Shown here: positions 3,239 through 39,069 of the stretch, one piece after another
Numbering within the stretch: position 1 is the first letter of the stretch
Layout of the letters: each line of letters begins with the position of its first letter
Source of the DNA: Allomyces arbusculus
Taxonomy: Eukaryota > Blastocladiomycota > Blastocladiomycetes > Blastocladiales > Blastocladiaceae
Assembly: GCA_027604705.1 (NCBI GenBank)
Contig: JADHYV010000115.1
Location: 1 to 43,479, forward strand
Length of the DNA: 43,479 nucleotides
Direction of reading: 5' to 3'
Notes under the pieces: model-generated
What the model saw: only the letters and a program-made list of their open reading frames with translations
Told to the model about the DNA's origin: nothing
Database searches by the model: none
Position numbers and translations under genes: made by a program

Positions 3239-4147
3239 GCGCGCGCGTTGCTGGTAGTCAAGAAGCGAGTCCGAATATTGATCGTTGCGTGCTTGACGGA
3301 GTGCGCAAAGTGTGGTCGATTGTGGTTGATGGCCAGCGTCGAGCAGCGTTCAAGTGCCTGGGGGAACGAACTTTGCCGTTGGCCGTTGGCTCGAACCTGC
3401 TCACAAACACGGGCCAGGAGATGTTCGTTCGTGACAGCTTGCCGCTGACCGACCTGACCGGTCTGTGACCACGCAACCTGCAAATCCACATCGTAATTTG
3501 CAGCACTGTCATCAGCAACTCCGAGTGGTTGTTGTGCATCGAGGTCACCGGCGGCAGTCGCGTTCCTGTGCACCATGCCGGCAGGAATGCAGCCCTGCCG
3601 TTGCGCTTCTGGTCAACCAATTGCGCAAATCAAGAGTTGCTCAATCTTCGCGGCATTTTTCATTCAATTTCTCTCACGGCTGGCTCGCTCGATTGGCTCG
3701 CTCGATTGGGTCGCTCGATTGGCATGTGCATCAGCTGCTCGACACTTTGGTCACCAACTTCGACGAACATGGTGCATTTGACCTCGTCTTCCCGACAGGT
3801 CGGTGCCCCTAGCAACCCGACGCGGAGCCTCCGTCCATGTCCATTGCCTTGCGCACACCTGTCCGCTGCACCGATGCTCTCCTGGCGTCGCCCTGGTTTG
3901 ACGGGCGCCCACGTCGTGATCTCGTCCTGCATTTCAAGTGCCGCGCCAGGGGTCGCGCCTCCACTGATGCGACGCGACCAGCGTCATGTCGCACGACAGC
4001 GGCCAACTGTCGAAGACTATATGCGGCCACACGCGCACCAGGTCGGCGGAGTGGATTTCTTTCCGATGCCACCGTGACCGCTCCTCGTTTCTCTCTCCCG
4101 CTCGACGGATCTCAATCTCGAGCGTGGTCCGCCCCCTCTCCACAGCC
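3239..4147. other. divergent intergenic region between SET and P450 genes
   Basis: About 0.9 kb separating two divergent starts, presumably holding both promoters. I see no convincing gene. The only structure noticed is the 13-bp tandem repeat at 3681-3722. Confidence 0.5.
3681..3722. repeat. 13-bp tandem repeat, 3 copies
   Basis: Three near-identical direct copies of TGGCTCGCTCGAT followed by TGG, in the divergent promoter region between the SET and P450 genes. Confidence 0.8.
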
Positions 4148-6159
4148 ATGCCGCTTCTTAGCACCGTCACCAACCTGATTCCGTCGCCGCTGCGCTACAC
4201 GGCAGAATCGGCCGGTACGGCCCTGACCGCGTACGTCGCGCGCGTTCTGCCGTTCACCGCGGTCGAGAACCCGTCGGTGCCGCTCGTCGCCGTCCTTGCC
4301 GTCTCGCTCGGGCTCGCTCTGGCACTGCGTCGTGTGCTGCTCAAATCGTCTGACGCGACCAAGCGACTGCCGCCGGGCCCGCCCGCATGGCCGATCATTG
4401 GCCACTTGCCGCTCATGGCCTCGACGACCGAGACCGACAAGTTGATCCAGGGGCTTGCCAAAGAATACGGACCCATCTTCCACCTCAAGCTCGGCAATGT
4501 CACGGTTATTGTCATTTCGAACGAGGAGCTCGCGCGCGAGACGCTCATTAAGCACGGCAAGACCTACGCCGGCCGGTTCACCGGCAAGGTGCTGTCCATA
4601 TCGGGCGACGGCGCTCAGGATTTGGTCATGGTACGTGACGTCGAATGGAGTTCTGTCGTGTGTGGCTTTGCTCGCATTTTCATTTTCTCACCTTGACGCT
4701 TTTCACCCACTGCGAACAGTCGCCGTACGGCGAGCGCTGGCGCCACCTGCGTCGAGTCGCGCACAGGATCCTGACGCCGCTCGCGCTCACGCAAATGGAC
4801 GTGATGCTCGAGAACGAGTCGCTGCGCATGATCCAGCAGCTGCTCGAGCACAACGACAAGCACCGTGCCGAGCCCATCGACATTGCCAAGCGCCTAATTC
4901 TCTACACGTGCAACATTATCGCGGCCAAGTCACTCGGCGTCACGTTTGCCTCGTCCGACAATGCGACGTTTACGGGCCTGATCGAGGCGATCCTCGAAGT
5001 GTTTGTGATTGGCGGTGTAGGCGGGCTCGAAGACTACTTCAACGGCGGCGGTCTGTTCGACTACATACTCACCAAGCACAAGCGCGAGGCCATGGAGCGG
5101 ATCAAGGAGCGCGTGCATAACAGGTTTATTTTCGGCCGCATCAAGGAACTCCAGGCCATTATCAAGGGCGATCTCGCGCAGGGCCGCGACCCGCGCACTG
5201 ACCGCGAACTGTGCTATGCCGAGGAGCTGCTGCTGACCATGGACGAGGAGAAGCTCACGCTCAACGACATCAAGCTGCTCATGGTGGACTTCATTTTTGC
5301 CGGGATTGTACGTGGCTGATTTTGCGTGCGTTTCTGACCCCTTGAGTTCGTAACCACTGACACGCCCTTCAATTCTTAGGACACGACGTCGGCGACGCTG
5401 CACTGGGTCATGCTCTACCTGTGCAACAACCCGCAAGTGCAAAAGCGCGCGCAGGCCGAGGCCGACCGCATTGTCAAGGCACACAGTCGTCTCCCGTGCT
5501 TCGAGGACATGGACGCAATGCCCTACACGCGCGCAATCATCAAGGAAGCCACGCGCATTCGTCCCGTCGGCCCGCTCGGCCTGCCGCGACAAACGATCGA
5601 GGAAGACACGGTCGCCGGGTACTACATCCCCAAGGACGCACAAGTCATCTATAACACGGTCGGGATCCACGAGGGGCTCTACCCAGAGGACACGGAAAAG
5701 TTCAAGCCCGAGCGGTGGCTCGCGGCCAACTTCAACGACTCGGGCAACGGGTCGATTTTGCCGGCCGCCGGCAGCGGCGGCCGTCGCGGGTCCGACCTCA
5801 AGATCGTGGCCGAGGACGGGGCTCCGCCGTCGTCGGCGCCCGATGAGGCCGGGCACCGGCTCGAGTTGCTCGATGGGATTTACTTATTTGGCCAAGGCCG
5901 CCGCTTGTGCCCGGGCGTGCACCTCGCGCTGCGCGAAATGTTCATTCTAGTGTCGCGGCTCATGGCGTGCGTCACGCTCGACTCGGCCCTGCACCCGGGG
6001 AAGCCGTTTAGCGACGAGGCGCAGTTCGGGCTGACGGTGTTGCCCAAGGAGAAAGTGCTCGTTACGGCGACCGAGCGCGACCCGGCGATGCGCGAGATGC
6101 TCAACATGGAGAAGCGGCAAGTGATGAAGCGCCGCGTGTCACTAAGTGTGCACACGTAA
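4148..6159 (+). CDS. cytochrome P450 monooxygenase
   Basis: Heme-thiolate monooxygenase, probably ER-anchored, substrate unknown. Exons are 4148-4630, 4720-5307 and 5380-6159; both introns are in phase 0 and start GTACGT. The 616-residue product has an N-terminal hydrophobic anchor (about residues 38-60). The proline-rich hinge reads PPGPPAWPIIGHL and the helix-C segment SPYGERWRHLRR. The I-helix AGIDTT is assembled across intron 2. The K-helix ExxR is seen in IIKEATRIRP, then KFKPERW and the heme loop FGQGRRLCPG with its cysteine ligand. Unusually, a Gly/Ser/Asp-rich insertion of roughly 45-60 residues sits between the PERW motif and the heme loop, making the protein longer than the usual 500-540 residues. 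Whether it works in secondary or sterol metabolism cannot be told. Confidence 0.93.
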
Positions 6160-12584: not shown

Positions 12585-13965
12585 TTACAGCAACCCGACG
12601 CGACGGAGGTTCTCCTGGATGACAATGTCGTTAACCTAGGACGACGCAAGGTGGAGGGGTCAGTAACGTATTCTGCGGAGGGGTTAAAAAGAAGAAGTCG
12701 ATTCGTACAGCGGCCATGACGAAGCGCACTTGCGTCGTGTCGGTCGCGCACGTGAAGTGCGTGTAGACTTGCTTTTCCGTGGACCGGTTGAGCGCCGTGA
12801 ACCGCTGCAGGAAGTACTCGCATGCCGCGTCGTAGTTGCTGTCGTTGACGGCCGGGAAGTCCGGGAAGTAGTGCGACAGCGGCGAGGACCCGGACATGAG
12901 CTTTTGCTTGAACAGGTCAATCTACAAGGCATGCGGGGCGGGGCGGTAAGTATCGGCGCGAAAAGTATGTGCAGGGCAAGACTAATGCGGACCTTGTTGA
13001 GGAACAGGATGATGGACGTGTGCGCAAACCACCGCGAGTTGCAAACTGTTGAACGAGGAAGTGGCGCGGTCAGCGACATGAGCTGCAAGCCGGAAAAGGA
13101 TGCGGCGCGCAACGTACTGCTGTCGAACAGGGCGAGGGCTTCCATCATGCGGTTGACCGACTCGTCCTCGACGAGCACCTGGTCGTACTCGGAAATGGCG
13201 ACGAGGAAGACAATGGCCGTGACGTTTTCAAAGCAGTGGATCCACTTTTTGCGCTCGGACCGCTGGCCGCCGACGTCGAACATGCTGTGGAGTAGGAAAA
13301 GCACGATGAGTATTGTGCCGTGGCGCATCGCATGAATCCAAAAACACGCACCGGTATGTCAAGTCGCCAATATGGAATGTGGTCTCGACAATCCCCGTCG
13401 TCTTGACACGCGACCGCAAGATATCCTGGTCGGTCGGGACGTACCCCGGTGCGGCAATCCGGTCGAGCGCGTCAAAGTAGTACTTTGCCGAATCGTTCAG
13501 CTGGAACTCGCGCGACCGCAGGTAGGCCGCCTGAATTGCCGCATCCTGCCAGAGCATCGCGACCGCGCGCGCCAAGTCGGCCGGGAATGTATCAACCCCC
13601 GCGAGCGGCGACGAAGTCCCGGCAATCGCGACCGCATCCGCGAGCATTTCCGCGGCCTCCTCGGCGGCCGCCCCGCCAGCGAGCGGCAGCCCAAGCCGCT
13701 GCGTGCACCCATTGGCGAGCGCAACCATGGCTTGCAGTACGTTGGCGAAAATGATTTCGCGGAAGGCTTGCCGGTCAGAGTCGGTGTACCCACCGCCGTG
13801 AATCAGCGTCATTTGCTTGAGAATCGTCGACTTGCCGGATTCACCGGCGCCGAGCAGCAGCAGCTTCACTTCGTTGCGCGCGCGCGCCGCGTCGCGCTTG
13901 AGCTGCATGTCGATGGCGTCCGAGTTGGACTTGCCCTGGGCCTCGGAACTGGAGACGCAGCCCAT
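12585..13965 (-). CDS. heterotrimeric G-protein alpha subunit
   Basis: GTP-binding signal transducer at the plasma membrane. Five exons: 13965-13352, 13284-13118, 13045-12993, 12921-12709 and 12635-12585. The product is 365 residues. MGC at the N-terminus predicts myristoylation (G2) and palmitoylation (C3). G-box motifs: GAGESGKST (P-loop), [12 protein letters not shown] (switch I with the Arg and Thr), [12 protein letters not shown] (switch II, completed across intron 1), FLNK-ID (split at intron 3) and TCATDT. The C-terminus is NLRRVGLL. The residue four from the end is Val rather than the Cys that pertussis toxin modifies. The helical domain is about 10 residues longer than in animal Gi, with an Ala/Gly-rich stretch (about residues 95-120). 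All GTPase residues appear present. Confidence 0.95.
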
Positions 13966-30308: not shown

Positions 30309-30846
30309 ATGACCAACCTGTCGACGACCGAAGTGGAGGCCATTGGCTATGTCGGCGGCGTCGTTTTGGGTACCGGTTAATTGTTCAAGTTTCGCTCAAA
30401 TAAACCCCCCTCGTTGCTCGTGCCCACGGTTCATTTTGCCGACAATGAATAGCGCTCTGCCTGGCGCCGCAAATTGTTCAAGTCGTCCGCACTGAGTCGG
30501 CGGAGGACATTTCCTACGCGTGGCAATTCCTGTACCTCGTTGGCCTTGCAATCACCTTGGTGCGCAACGTGTTCTTGCCAACAGTCCGCGCACGAACCCG
30601 CCGCTGACCGTCGACAATCCCATTGTGCAGGCATACCTGGTCCTGGTGGATGCTGTTGCCGGATACGTTTCAGTGATTGTCGAGATTGCCCTACTTCTCG
30701 TCCTCGTCGCGTGCAAATGGTATTACGACCGGAAGCGCGCAAAGCGCGTATTGCAGGCCGAGCTCGTGGGTGACGTACTCGCAGACATGCGCGCCAGCGA
30801 GAACGGCGCGGATTCTGATGCCAAGGCACCGCTCGCGTCCGCTTGA
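30309..30846 (+). CDS. single-repeat PQ-loop / SemiSWEET-like membrane protein, copy A
   Basis: A 127-residue protein from exons 30309-30369, 30453-30559 and 30631-30846. It has one MtN3/PQ-loop unit of three membrane helices. Helix 1 is IGYVGGVVLALCLAPQIVQV with the PQ pair. The loop RTESAEDISYAWQ links to helix 2, FLYLVGLAITLAYLVLV. Helix 3 is VSVIVEIALLLVLVACKW, followed by a basic then acidic cytoplasmic tail. The family fold (known for SWEET and SemiSWEET) works as a dimer of such units, moving sugars or other small solutes. Transport of sugar by this protein is inference. No second repeat can be found downstream before the stop. The next gene encodes a paralogue with the same two intron positions and phases (phase 1, then phase 0). 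An uncharacterised PQ-loop subfamily is the main alternative. Confidence 0.85.
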
Positions 30847-31698
30847 CGGGTGGACAAGGCGCCTGCATAGCTTATAGTTCTGTTTTTGGGCGTGAATGCA
30901 GATAAATTGGTATTAGGCGGCTCATTTGATGTGTTGCCGTTTGCGGCCAGCTTGCACCACGCGTCGTGCCGCGCCGCGCCGGGCGCGTTCTTTCGCTGAC
31001 AGAGAAAGCACGACAACAAAACCGGCTCAAGAGACCGAGCCTGCACGAGAACACATGAGTCCGCTCATCTTGTCTTGTCGTAACACGGCGGCGGCGCGCC
31101 TCTCGACCGGCCCGAGCTGATGGTCAGATCGCTCATGGCCAACCACCTTGAATGGTGCCGTTCGATTGTTCAGGAGGAGCTGCCACGGGGTGCACATGAT
31201 GATGGCTCGACCGTCATTTCGGCCCCTCTTGCTCGGAAACGACTCTGCAACGCCAACCCTCGGTGGTATTCTGGTGCATTCCCCCGTGCGCGACGCGTCT
31301 TGCAGGCCGACAAATAAACGCGTCCACATGCGACCGCGTCGCCACCAAAACGCGCGCATGTGTTCACGACGCGCACGGACCACGTCGAGTGCCTGTTGTG
31401 TTCCACGCCATAGGTTTGTAATTCGATCTGCTCGCTCGTCTATAAATACTGTCTCCCCCCCCCCCCTCACGCTGCCATGGTCCCATTCTCAACGAGTACT
31501 CCTTCGCGCGCTACTGTCACGACCGACATTTTGTGCTCGCAACTCTTGCAATTTCCGAGTCACACATTGGCGCGCCGCGTCTTTCCTGCCACGTTGACCT
31601 GCCACTGGATGGCTGGTTCGACTCTCTCCATTTTCTTCTCGTACACAGCCCGCCGCGCGTTCCTGTCCCCCGACGTGGCGAACCGGCCGTAAACAAAA
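30847..31698. other. intergenic region between the two PQ-loop genes
   Basis: About 0.85 kb. A TATA-like element and a 12-C run lie near its right end. A short frame from an ATG at 31477 may be an upstream ORF in the leader of copy B. Confidence 0.45.
31441..31448 (+). promoter_or_regulatory. TATA-like element for PQ-loop copy B
   Basis: TATAAATA followed after 6 bases by a run of 12 C (31455-31466) and an ATG at 31477 in good context (GCCATGG). Placement about 250 bp before the coding start of copy B would imply a leader of over 200 nt containing that short frame. Confidence 0.35.
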
Positions 31699-32395
31699 AT
31701 GGATCCGATGATTGTGAATAAGAATTGCCCGGTGCCGACGTGGTACACGGCGCAGGTGATGGGCGCCGAGCCGGCGGCGACGACAGCGGGTGAGCACAGT
31801 GCCTTGGTCGAGGCGATTGGTTATGTGAGCGGAGGGATTCTCGGTACAGATTGATCCGCAGTCGAAATTGTTCTGATTGGAACTACGGTCCCTGACGCGC
31901 GATGATGATGTGGGTGGTGCGGATTAACAGCCGTGTGCCTCGTGCCGCAAATCTACCAAGTGTGGAAGACACGGTCAGCCGAGGATATTTCGTACTGGTG
32001 GTCGTTTCTCTACTTTCTCGGCACGGTCGGGACGCTGGTACGTCTGCGCATGACGTGTCAATCGGTGATGGTGGAGAACCTGACGCGCGCGGATCTAGGT
32101 GTATATGGTGCTCGTAAACGCCGTGGCCGGATGGGTCTCGGGCGCGATTGAGACGGTCATGTTGTTTGTGTTGGTTGGGATCAAGTGGTGGTATGACCGG
32201 CGCGCGCAATTGGCCGGGGATGGTGGAGAGGCGGAGGAGGCCGCGGTGATAGCAGCGGTGAGGACGGCACCGTCAGTGCGCAGTCACCGATCGGCGTCTT
32301 CGTCGACGGTCAAGTACCCGGGCCGCGTGCTGTACGCGGTGGTGGATCAGGTCGAGGACGAGAACGCGACCACGGTCGGTGCGGGCGATGCGTGA
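31699..32395 (+). CDS. single-repeat PQ-loop / SemiSWEET-like membrane protein, copy B
   Basis: A 182-residue paralogue of copy A, from exons 31699-31843, 31931-32037 and 32099-32395. The middle exon is exactly 107 nt in both genes and the intron phases agree. The N-terminus is 30 residues longer (MDPMIVNKNCPVPTWYT). Helix 1 reads IGYVSGGILAVCLVPQIYQV, the loop WKTRSAEDISYWW and helix 2 FLYFLGTVGTLVYMVLV. Helix 3 reads VSGAIETVMLFVLVGIKWWY, then an acidic, Ser-rich tail of about 70 residues. SAEDISY and the Glu in helix 3 are conserved between the copies, while tails differ fully. That fits an old tandem duplication under constraint in the membrane part. An upstream ATG at 31477 is in another frame, so 31699 is preferred; the in-frame Met near residue 21 is also possible. 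Confidence 0.85.
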
Positions 32396-32568: not shown

Positions 32569-33396
32569 TCAAATCACGCGGCGGTCCGACATGACGCGGA
32601 CAATCGCGCCGACGCCCGAGACCTCGGTGATCTGTTTTGAATGGCGAGCAAGCAACAGGCCAGGTTTAGCAACGGCATCGCGCAGCAAATCCGACCGGTG
32701 TCGAGGGGGGGGGGGGGTACCTTTTCGTGCCATGCGAGGAGCGCGCCGCAGTTGTAGAGTTGAGGTTGGGCCATGGCCTTGTAGACGTACTTGAGCAGCA
32801 GGTCGCGGTCGGCGGGAGAGAGGACGGGCAGGTACTGGGCGGCATCGGCGACACGGGCCGTGGCCAAAACGTCGGCCACGGCCTTGGTGGACTGTTCCTT
32901 GGCCGGAGCGAGGGCCGGATCGGTGCCGTAGGGCGCATCGCCCGTGAGCGCAGCGCTGAGGGCCTCGGCAACGGCGCCACTGGAATTGAAGGAGCGGGAC
33001 ACGACACGCGGTGGACGGCGTTAGGTTCCGTTCGACTCGGGTGAAGGTGACAGGGTGGGTGGTCGAGGCTCGCGAGACGCGTCGTGTGCGGTTGGAAGTG
33101 CAGGGGCCGCGGCGCGTGTCGACCCATCGGCATGCCCCATGGCGTTGCCAAGCGGTGGCGCCGAGTGCGGCCGCTGGCTCGTTGGCTGGCTGCGCGTGGA
33201 TCGGCGCGCGGCCCCGCAGAAAGAAGCGAGCAGGTCGTGATAATTACCGGGCGAGCAGGCTGGCAACGTGGGCGGCGCGCTCGGCAGCGACGGCGTTGAG
33301 CACGTCGGGCGGCGGGCCGGCCGGGTTGAGCGCGGCCGACTCGTAGTCCTCGTCGTCGAGGCCGAGCGAGTCGACGTCGACTTTGCGGTGCGACAT
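32569..33396 (-). CDS. ARPC5: Arp2/3 complex subunit 5 (p16-ARC)
   Basis: Smallest subunit of the actin-branching Arp2/3 complex, an all-helical protein bridging ARPC1 and ARPC4. Exons 33396-33248, 32979-32721 and 32631-32569 give 156 residues (human 151). Family signatures: HRKVDVDSLG at the N-terminus, then EALSAALTG. The best-conserved block is DLLLKYVYKAMAQP..YNCGALLAWHEK. The last exon supplies ITEVSGVGAIVRVMSDRRVI, matching the GVGSIVRV end of animal ARPC5. Intron 1 is 268 nt, well above the 65-120 nt of its neighbours. The 5' splice site of intron 2 runs straight into a 13-C tract. The frame is open upstream of ATG 33396, but the family start fits this ATG. It is divergent from the WEPLG-repeat gene. 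Confidence 0.93.
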
Positions 33397-36398: not shown

Positions 36399-39069
36399 TC
36401 AATGCAGCTGGCGGAAACACATGGCGACAATGACGCCGCCCAGCACCGCCAGCGTCGATAACGCATTCATCGCCAACCCATACGAGCTATCCTGCGCAAT
36501 TAACGCCGCGATCCCGGCGGGAATCACTGCGAGCGACCCGTTCACGCAACACGTGACGACGCCGTACGCCGTCGACAGCGTGCGCGGGTCGTGCACAATG
36601 TACGGGATCAGCGGCCACAGCATCGACGCACCGACCGCATACGCCGTCCCACACCCGAGCAGCGCCGGTAACAGGAACCGGCGGTCGTCCGAGTGCCCAA
36701 ACGCAAGGCACACGAGCGCGAGCAAAACACCGTTTGCGTGCAGTGCAAACTGCCGCTGCCGGTGCGACATGCGCTCAAACAGGTACCCCGAAACCGGCAC
36801 GACCAGCGTCGCCATCGTATCCGCGAGCGCAACCATGGATCCGGCCTCGGTCGCGGCCAGGCCGTACTTGGACTGCAAAAAGCCCGACGCCAAACTCGTC
36901 ACCGTATTGCATGTGCCGTAAACGCTCACCATACCGAGCGCGATCGCCCAGTACTCGACAGGGAACGACCGCAGGACCAACTGGCCGTCGTGGTCGGTTG
37001 CTGCCGCTGCCGGCGGGTCCGGGACGAGGTATGCGCTCACCGGAATTGGGATCGCCGAGCCCATGACCGACGGCACGACCGTCGCGGGCGGTCGCGGCTT
37101 TTCATCGCTCATATGGTCAGCGGGATTTTCGGCGCTCGTCGTCGTGTGACCAAACGCGCCGCTGAGCGTGCGTTCGAGCCACCACCCGTGCCGCGTCTGT
37201 GCGTCGAGGTCCGGCACACCACTGGTCGGATCCCGTGCGACGGGCCACGGCTCGACCCCGGCCGTCGAACCCGCATCGTCGTCGCGACCCGGAACCGTAG
37301 AAATGAGGCCCAGTGTTGACATACGACGGCCACCCACCGGTGGCGGGACCGCGGATGCGTGGAGCAACGGTGTGCCCTCGGTCACGGACGGTGGTGCGCG
37401 CAAACTCGCCCACGAATCAAAACTCTGTAGCCGCGACCGGTGCGAGAGGCGACGTGGGCGGCGGAACCGGGCCTCGGACGCGGACCGTAGGAGTGATACG
37501 GGCACGTCCTCTTCGTCGTCCGACGAGACATGGTGTGCAGATTGCGCGCGGTGGTAGTCAATGAGGCACGCGAACGCGCCGAGAACGAGCGAGATGGAGC
37601 AGAGGATCAGGGCCGACATGCCCGCGATCGAGGGGCCAAAGCGCGTCGCGATGACAGGGGTGAGCAGGTCGTTCATGACAGAACCCAATCTGCACAGTGG
37701 CAAATGCGCGCGACGAGGTCAGGAATGGGTGCAATGCGAAACAAAGTGCCGCGAAACCGTGAGCAACGAACCGTGCCAGCGCGAGATGGAAGCCGAGCGC
37801 AAATCCCAGCGATCGTTCGTGGAACCTGACAGAAATCAAGACTGTCAATTTGGTGTCCACAATCGGCGACAATGTACCAAACGAAGACGTACCAATCGCA
37901 AGTGATTCGAGTCTGCGATACGCTGAGCGACTCGCCGCCGACGCCGAGAAGGAACCGGCCGAGGAGGAGCCACTCCATGCTGGACCACTGGATCCCGAGC
38001 GCGACAAGCCCTTGGCCGGCGACGACCAAAGTGAGAAGGATCATGTGGATGCTCCGGGCACCTACACCGAGGAATTGCAAAGCATGAGCCTGCAAACCCG
38101 GTATAGATCGCACCACGGGAACGCACCGTGGATATCAATCATTCGACCCGCAAGAAACGGCATGATCGCATTCGGCAGAGCGTACATGGCGTACATGCGC
38201 CCAAACGGGCCTTGCCACGCGTCCTCGTCAAACCCGAATCGGTCCTCGAGCTGCGTGTTGAGTTGGCCCGGCAAATCAAACGCATAAAACGAGCCGGTCA
38301 CGGACAGGGCCAGCGTGAGCAGGAGAAGCGGGCGGTTGGGAACGTAGGCCGGCCCATCGTCACGAGCAGCGACACTTCCACCCGCAATCGTCGCAGCACC
38401 GCAGTGCAACGGGAGCGCGACAACGCTGCCCGCACAGGAAGGTAAGACTCGACCCGCAACGCCGCCAAATCCGCCGATTTCGTCGCTGCCGAGCACTCCC
38501 CCAGCTAGGCCCAAAGAGGTGGCCACGGGAACTGGGAGCGTCGTGGAAACGACGACGCCCGGGTCGATGGCGACCACAAACGTGGTGGTATGAGGCTCGA
38601 CGCCATCACAAAAGACGGACGGGTCCGGAATCAGCGGGTCACTTTCATGCCCATCGTGCAGTCCCGCATCGTTCTCGTCTCTGCGCCGCTCCACGGGACC
38701 GGGACCGCGGTCAATGGGGAGTCCAAACCGGAGAATACCCGATGGGAAACCATGTTCTTTCGCGTCAGCGACCGAGGCCGTGTAGGTCGAGCCCGTTGCG
38801 CACAGACTCGACGAAATGACGGAATGGCCCGTCTGTGTCGTCGTATCGCCGCGAGAATGGGAGCGGTACACTGGCTGCGGGGGGTCGCCGACGTCCGGGA
38901 GCGCCGTGGAAATAGGTTCGCGCTGGTTGGTTGGGCAATCAGGTGGTCGTGCGCTGAAACAATTTGCTTGCAGCGGAAGCGAATTGAGTGCGGACTCAGG
39001 TCGGGGCGAGAGAGCACGAGGCAGGGATGTTGGAGACTGAGCGGATGCCAAGGTCATGGGCCGCGGCAT
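36399..39069 (-). CDS. MFSD1-like major facilitator superfamily transporter
   Basis: Twelve-helix transporter related to lysosomal/vacuolar MFSD1. Exons 39069-38127, 38061-37893, 37825-37772 and 37689-36399 give about 818 residues. An exceptionally long N-terminal tail (about 245 residues, Ser/Pro-rich with acidic patches) precedes helix 1 (LLLLTLALSVTGSFYAFDLP). The family blocks follow: YAMYALPNAIMPFLAGRMID, MEWLLLGRFLLGVGGESLSV (Gly-rich helix 4) and RLGSVMNDLLTPVIA. A hydrophilic loop of nearly 200 residues, carrying several acidic-Ser segments, separates the two six-helix halves. The second half begins EYWAIALGMVSVYGTCNTV. MFSD1 proteins of animals are about 465 residues, so tail and loop explain the extra length. 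MFSD1 is reported to export dipeptides from lysosomes; substrate here is inference. ATG 39069 is the first in frame, and Met5 is also possible. Confidence 0.88.

Follow-up and report, generated by a model that had tools for sequence, protein, structure and literature searches.

What do two neighbouring half-size carriers transport in a eukaryote? The stretch of DNA analysed here (the window) is the 43,479-nucleotide contig JADHYV010000115.1 of Allomyces arbusculus, a species placed in the Blastocladiomycota. Within positions 30309-32395 it carries two genes, A and B, both on the + strand. Are these sugar carriers of the SemiSWEET type, or perhaps the two halves of a split SWEET? Or do they belong to something else? 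We confirm a tandem pair of SemiSWEET-like one-unit genes, whose products are predicted to be membrane carriers made of one PQ-loop unit and folded like SemiSWEETs, belonging to a distinct family marked by a glutamate in helix 3. The first-pass annotation of this DNA had described one-unit, tandem, spliced, native genes that are not fragments, and in this it stands. The novelty for eukaryotes, the SemiSWEET-like label if read as a sugar carrier and the suggested split SWEET are not supported.

The two genes have predicted introns of the same phases, 1 and 0, and a second exon of 107 nt in both:

30309..30369, + strand: gene A exon 1, 61 nt, start of helix 1; the gene product is the deposited GGF31_000967
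30370..30452, + strand: gene A intron 1, 83 nt, phase 1, GT..AG
30453..30559, + strand: gene A exon 2, 107 nt, PQ motif and helix 2; PF04193 match at residues 10-62
30560..30630, + strand: gene A intron 2, 71 nt, phase 0
30631..30846, + strand: gene A exon 3 including the stop, helix 3 and cytoplasmic tail; model helix 65-119
30682..30684, + strand: gene A codon of E74, the family-invariant helix-3 glutamate, from the sequence and alignment column counts
31699..31843, + strand: gene B exon 1, 145 nt, N-terminal extension; the gene product is the deposited GGF31_000968
31844..31930, + strand: gene B intron 1, 87 nt, phase 1
31931..32037, + strand: gene B exon 2, 107 nt, PQ motif and helix 2; PF04193 match at residues 37-91
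32038..32098, + strand: gene B intron 2, 61 nt, phase 0
32099..32395, + strand: gene B exon 3 including the stop, helix 3 and long tail
32150..32152, + strand: gene B codon of E102, the invariant helix-3 glutamate, from the sequence and alignment

The spliced products are letter-identical to the A. arbusculus proteins GGF31_000967 (A; P0007, 127 aa) and GGF31_000968 (B; P0001, 182 aa), the deposited models being themselves predicted. The tandem order recurs in both other Allomyces species found, with AMAG_13112/13113 and GGF32_004634/004635 each consecutive on one contig. Because of this conservation and the matches to solved SemiSWEETs, chance is excluded. Bacterial contamination or recent transfer is ruled out by the splicing and by homologues in four genera of the phylum, and the genes are native, as had been proposed. 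The deposited A. javanicus orthologue of B (P0002, GGF32_004634) has extra residues after exon 1 and lacks four after exon 2; these splice-point differences are perhaps an annotation error.

Each protein has a single stretch matching the Pfam PQ-loop model PF04193, at 31.4 bits for A and 42.4 bits for B against a cut-off of 22, which bears out one PQ-loop unit per gene. A and B thus contain the one three-helix unit with a PQ motif that defines a SemiSWEET, and the two MtN3 units in one chain that define a eukaryotic SWEET are not found in them. Of the two Pfam models that had been suggested as a check, only PQ-loop recognises both proteins; MtN3_slv remains below cut-off in B (14.2 vs 23.7 bits) and is not listed for A. 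The best NCBIfam match by E-value is SemiSWEET_2 (2.4e-8 and 5.1e-8), at 34 and 33 bits, which is under half its cut-off of 80. The closest solved structures are bacterial SemiSWEETs, and a ten-row profile found 4rng at E 3.8e-13 and five more SemiSWEET sequences down to 1.1e-6.

How far does this family extend? A first profile search returned 23 proteins at E 0.01 or better, from Allomyces (three species), Blastocladiella (two species), Catenaria and Sorochytrium, together with unnamed proteins. A second, made with ten diverse rows, yielded 160 with an E-value of 1 or lower, the best 120 being listed; both searches scored only the 7996 candidates sharing most words. The family set comprises 122 proteins (P0001-P0018 and P0024-P0127). 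P0019, P0021 and P0022 were set aside as SemiSWEET-like controls, P0020 because it has two units and P0023 because it is truncated.

The signature of the family was read from an alignment of the 122 members and the three controls. The PQ pair is present in 122/122. At the position of Trp50 of EcSemiSWEET the members have H 78, N 15, T 14, S 7, M 4, I 2, G 1 and one gap, and at that of Asn66 they have T 61, S 22, L 13, V 9, G 5, A 5, I 3, C 2 and two gaps; neither Trp50 nor Asn66 is kept at these positions in any of the 122. Three residues beyond Asn66, 120 members have glutamate, and the two gaps are 71-residue proteins that end before that position. A has Thr and Val at the two pocket positions and B has Thr and Gly, and both carry all four features of the family: the PQ pair, a Trp and a Tyr at the positions of Met39 and Tyr53, and a Glu at Asn66+3. 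The controls keep Trp and Asn, with Ala at Asn66+3.

Prokaryotic SemiSWEETs resemble the controls. Among 64 distinct sequences from 80 pattern-found loci, mostly of Bradyrhizobium, the counts are W 64, N 64 and E 0, and among 47 loci found with the family profile they are W 46, N 47 and E 0. The two sets have at least 8 loci in common and amount to 75 distinct core sequences together. The profile search covered 701 prokaryotic genomes (9 + 398 + 296, two counted twice) sampled from two phyla plus nine individual genomes. For the two larger sets only matches with E 1e-10 or below were reported, in 17/398 and 77/296 genomes, and the best 20 of 79 matches were read in the latter. A pattern search for a prokaryotic origin matched 13 stretches, of which none was confirmed.

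Named members outside the fungi are from Scenedesmus sp. (P0033), from the diatom Grammatophora oceanica (P0110) and from an entry called 'viral metagenome' (P0111). Several unnamed rows are presumed to be green from their similarity to P0033. Many other members are unnamed short proteins similar to P0111, and these are probably from giant viruses, an origin supported by fold matches to giant-virus proteins: 'PQ loop repeat' proteins of Mimiviridae sp. ChoanoV1, a Bathycoccus virus and Hokovirus, at E 2.3e-4 to 3.5e-3. The same list also contains phage proteins called PQ-loop or SemiSWEET. The family is thus one of eukaryotes and, probably, giant viruses. When phage records were searched with tblastn, the outcome was two matches, both weak and partial; in the 642-kb uncultured phage record LR756502.1, positions 56997-57161 encode a partial, weak relative of the virus-type P0035 (36% over 54%).

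A tree of 52 rows and 80 columns serves here to ask whether the family is one group and where B belongs, and for nothing else. The 38 family rows form one clade (99/99), within which fungi group at 93/86 and green rows at 99/91.

The fungi are joined in that tree, at 89/84, by two fusion proteins. P0110 (304 aa) and P0123 (306 aa), the latter a metagenome cluster of seven members, consist of the one-unit domain of the family followed by a SpeD-type S-adenosylmethionine (AdoMet) decarboxylase domain, PF02675. They are 55% identical with the same order of parts, and in P0110 the SpeD portion has a match to 1tlu, the enzyme of Thermotoga, at E 1.3e-4. Around the ESH motif, whose serine we take to be the pyruvoyl-forming residue, the two are alike except for two residues.

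What might such a protein carry? Gene structure, predicted fold, family, signature and fusion are what the results above establish; the dimer, the substrate and the direction of transport are what we infer from here on. By analogy with SemiSWEET structures, each protein would most likely be a dimer in which two three-helix units enclose one central pathway, working by alternating access with the PQ motif as a hinge. The dimer would bring two glutamates to the place where SemiSWEETs grip sugar by Asn and Trp, alongside two mostly polar residues, Thr in A and B and mainly His, Asn or Ser elsewhere. The substrate would then probably be a cationic amine, most likely a polyamine held with one amine end per glutamate, because an extended cation fits two acids and the fusion to SpeD suggests a polyamine. 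On this reading A is the ancestral form, probably a homodimer, and B is an Allomyces duplicate with longer ends that may pair with itself or with A. To a polyamine carrier working as such a dimer we give somewhat less than an even chance. The wider proposal is more tentative still, a possibility rather than an expectation: hitherto unrecognised half-size polyamine carriers common to giant viruses, diatoms, green algae and the blastocladiomycete fungi. In them a dimer of SemiSWEET type would have been converted from sugars to cationic amines by exchanging Asn and Trp for a glutamate pair, and the diatom fusion to an aminopropyl-donor enzyme could couple synthesis to compartment transport, for example at the silica deposition vesicle.

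Several points weigh against these proposals. The substrate assignment rests on one signature and two fusions, the latter known from a single diatom and a single cluster of metagenome proteins. A search of the host genome with PF02675 gave no match, and therefore the polyamine link of the fungal proteins is by family only; only the eukaryotic-type AdoMet decarboxylase was found, on contigs C10 and C154, away from the contig of A and B. No polyamine gene is present among the 12 neighbouring open reading frames (ORFs) scanned with Pfam, 7 of which lack any match. Foldseek gave no match at E 0.001, the best being 1.1e-3, and four scans of viral contigs confirmed no family locus. The tree has 80 columns, unsettled bootstrap values, several long outgroup branches and SemiSWEETs that do not form one group. 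Lastly, the glutamate could serve proton coupling instead.

That last point leads to the chief rival, in which the glutamate couples protons and the substrate is a different small organic molecule, cationic or zwitterionic, for instance a basic amino acid. The lysosomal PQ-loop carriers PQLC2 and cystinosin are precedents for proton-coupled transport of this kind. We regard it as rather unlikely.

Could the proteins nevertheless be ordinary sugar SemiSWEETs kept in a eukaryote, homodimers that let sugar diffuse passively? The shared fold, the SemiSWEET_2 match and the solved relatives all speak for this. The pocket of EcSemiSWEET is lined by Trp50 and Asn66, and in the experiments described for that protein N66A lowers sucrose uptake and W50A raises it above that of wild type (PMC4309421). 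Loss of the Trp by itself is therefore compatible with a sugar substrate, a further point to be set against a polyamine. On the other side, the sugar-contacting Asn is found in 0/122 members vs 111/111 prokaryotic rows from partly overlapping sets, helix 3 has a new glutamate and the NCBIfam score is low. That the Asn has gone and an acidic residue has appeared argues against sugar more strongly than loss of the Trp. The label 'SemiSWEET-like', which the first-pass annotation had used, fails in the sense of a sugar carrier on these pocket residues in A, in B and throughout the family, and we consider sugar transport of this type distinctly unlikely.

An obligate A/B heterodimer, a split two-unit carrier, is less probable again. 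The mitochondrial pyruvate carrier (MPC), MPC1/MPC2, is a heterodimer of this split kind. A and B have no match to the MPC model PF03650 at E 1 or better and the host MPC genes are at separate loci, so that identity as MPC is rejected and the parallel is weakened. B-type proteins were found in Allomyces only, where B sits on an Allomyces-only branch, and one protein each from the two Blastocladiella species, Catenaria and Sorochytrium is among the matches listed. Over the core, A shares 71% and 73% of its residues with the two Blastocladiella proteins against 62% with B; the Catenaria protein, at 61%, is no closer. Since A is nearer to Blastocladiella than to B and these relatives each have a single protein among the matches listed, B is a diverged duplicate; the ancestral state in the phylum would be one gene, so far as the protein searches show. 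The split two-unit SWEET that had been envisaged is thus not favoured.

A third, A-like gene also exists in Allomyces, which further disfavours an obligate pair. In A. arbusculus it is P0009 (GGF31_004018), on a 2988-base contig, with counterparts in A. javanicus (P0010) and A. macrogynus (P0012); A joins this paralogue at 89/75 in the tree. B joins P0004 of A. javanicus at 100/98. P0004 has an intact reading frame and is similar to a B-like copy that the host genome carries at G000:C106:13435-13734 (locus L030, about 3435-3740, minus strand). With TAG in both exon-like pieces matched, this copy looks like a pseudogene.

Are A and B instead halves of a longer protein? A profile of the 108 members from outside the Blastocladiomycota scores A at 95.8 bits and B at 92.7 bits, six bacterial SemiSWEET-like sequences at 40.7-57.7 bits and eight unit fragments from host SWEET or two-unit PQ-loop loci at 2.4-14.6 bits, the fragments being exon pieces of 41-82 residues, which depresses their scores. 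These scores and the tree set A and B apart from the host two-unit loci and rule out fragments of a two-repeat protein, as had been maintained.

Least probable of all is that the unit is a membrane anchor or scaffold that merely holds SpeD at the membrane in the diatom fusion, for although fusions can tether enzymes and there are two fused members, a mere anchor needs neither the PQ hinge of 122/122 members nor the charged third-helix residue of 120/120 reaching it.

Around the pair, five of the neighbouring ORFs scanned have a Pfam match: two cytochrome P450 pieces, a G-protein alpha, a p16-Arc and an MFS protein. The convergent downstream neighbour is p16-Arc, an ARP2/3 subunit, at 66.9 bits:

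32577-33020, minus strand: p16-Arc
4645-6156 (+), 13231-13965 (-), 36402-37676 (-): cytochrome P450-, G-protein alpha- and MFS-matching ORFs, from Pfam

Elsewhere the host genome has SWEET loci on contigs C2, C13, C93 and C125, several PQ-loop loci and the MPC loci.

How much of this is new? A one-unit carrier had been presented as a departure for eukaryotes. One-unit SWEET relatives in eukaryotes were already described by Jia et al. 2017 (PMC5742349). A green-alga study likewise points to candidates with one unit and works with six SWEETs from A. macrogynus, among which A or B may or may not be included (PMC9520054), and chytrid SWEETs are only mentioned in another paper (PMC10774165). In the open-licence literature, subscription journals being outside the scope, neither the glutamate family nor its SpeD fusion turned up in our searches, and we met nothing linking PQ-loop proteins to giant viruses or to polyamine transport and nothing on a single PQ-loop transporter in mimiviruses. 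The literature naming PQ-loop together with S-adenosylmethionine decarboxylase is by title on antifungal targets, and that naming SemiSWEET together with polyamines is by title on unrelated topics. The glutamate family and the fusion therefore appear new within the literature searched. Should the substrate prove to be an amine, a transporter fold that ranks among the smallest has switched substrate class within eukaryotes and probably their viruses, and a single residue serves as the test of this. The diatom fusion would offer a direct way into the possible route of polyamines to compartments where silica forms. For naming, the label 'SemiSWEET-like' in a eukaryote need not imply sugar.

Compared with known systems, the family shares with the bacterial SemiSWEETs (4rng, 4qnc, 4x5m, 9kax) one three-helix unit, the PQ motif and a fold aligned over 81-86 residues. 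It differs in the lost pocket Trp and Asn, in the invariant helix-3 Glu, in a cytoplasmic tail and in a Trp at the Met39 position (122/122 members; 24/47 and 1/64 prokaryotic rows). MPC1 and MPC2 differ from A and B in their Pfam family and in having their own loci. The eukaryotic SemiSWEETs of three to four helices in Jia et al. are alike in being one unit in a eukaryote; they are described there as homologues of SWEETs and SemiSWEETs, whereas A and B are below or without MtN3_slv, and some members may be shared. The giant-virus 'PQ loop repeat' proteins have one unit by length and are among the best viral fold matches; they are virus-encoded, and the glutamate was checked in P0111 and similar metagenome proteins only. 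Diatom fusion proteins of polyamine biosynthesis are also known, namely the aminopropyltransferase fusions described in PMC12803844, in which the words 'PQ-loop' and 'transporter' do not occur; in the fusion reported here the partner is a membrane carrier unit.
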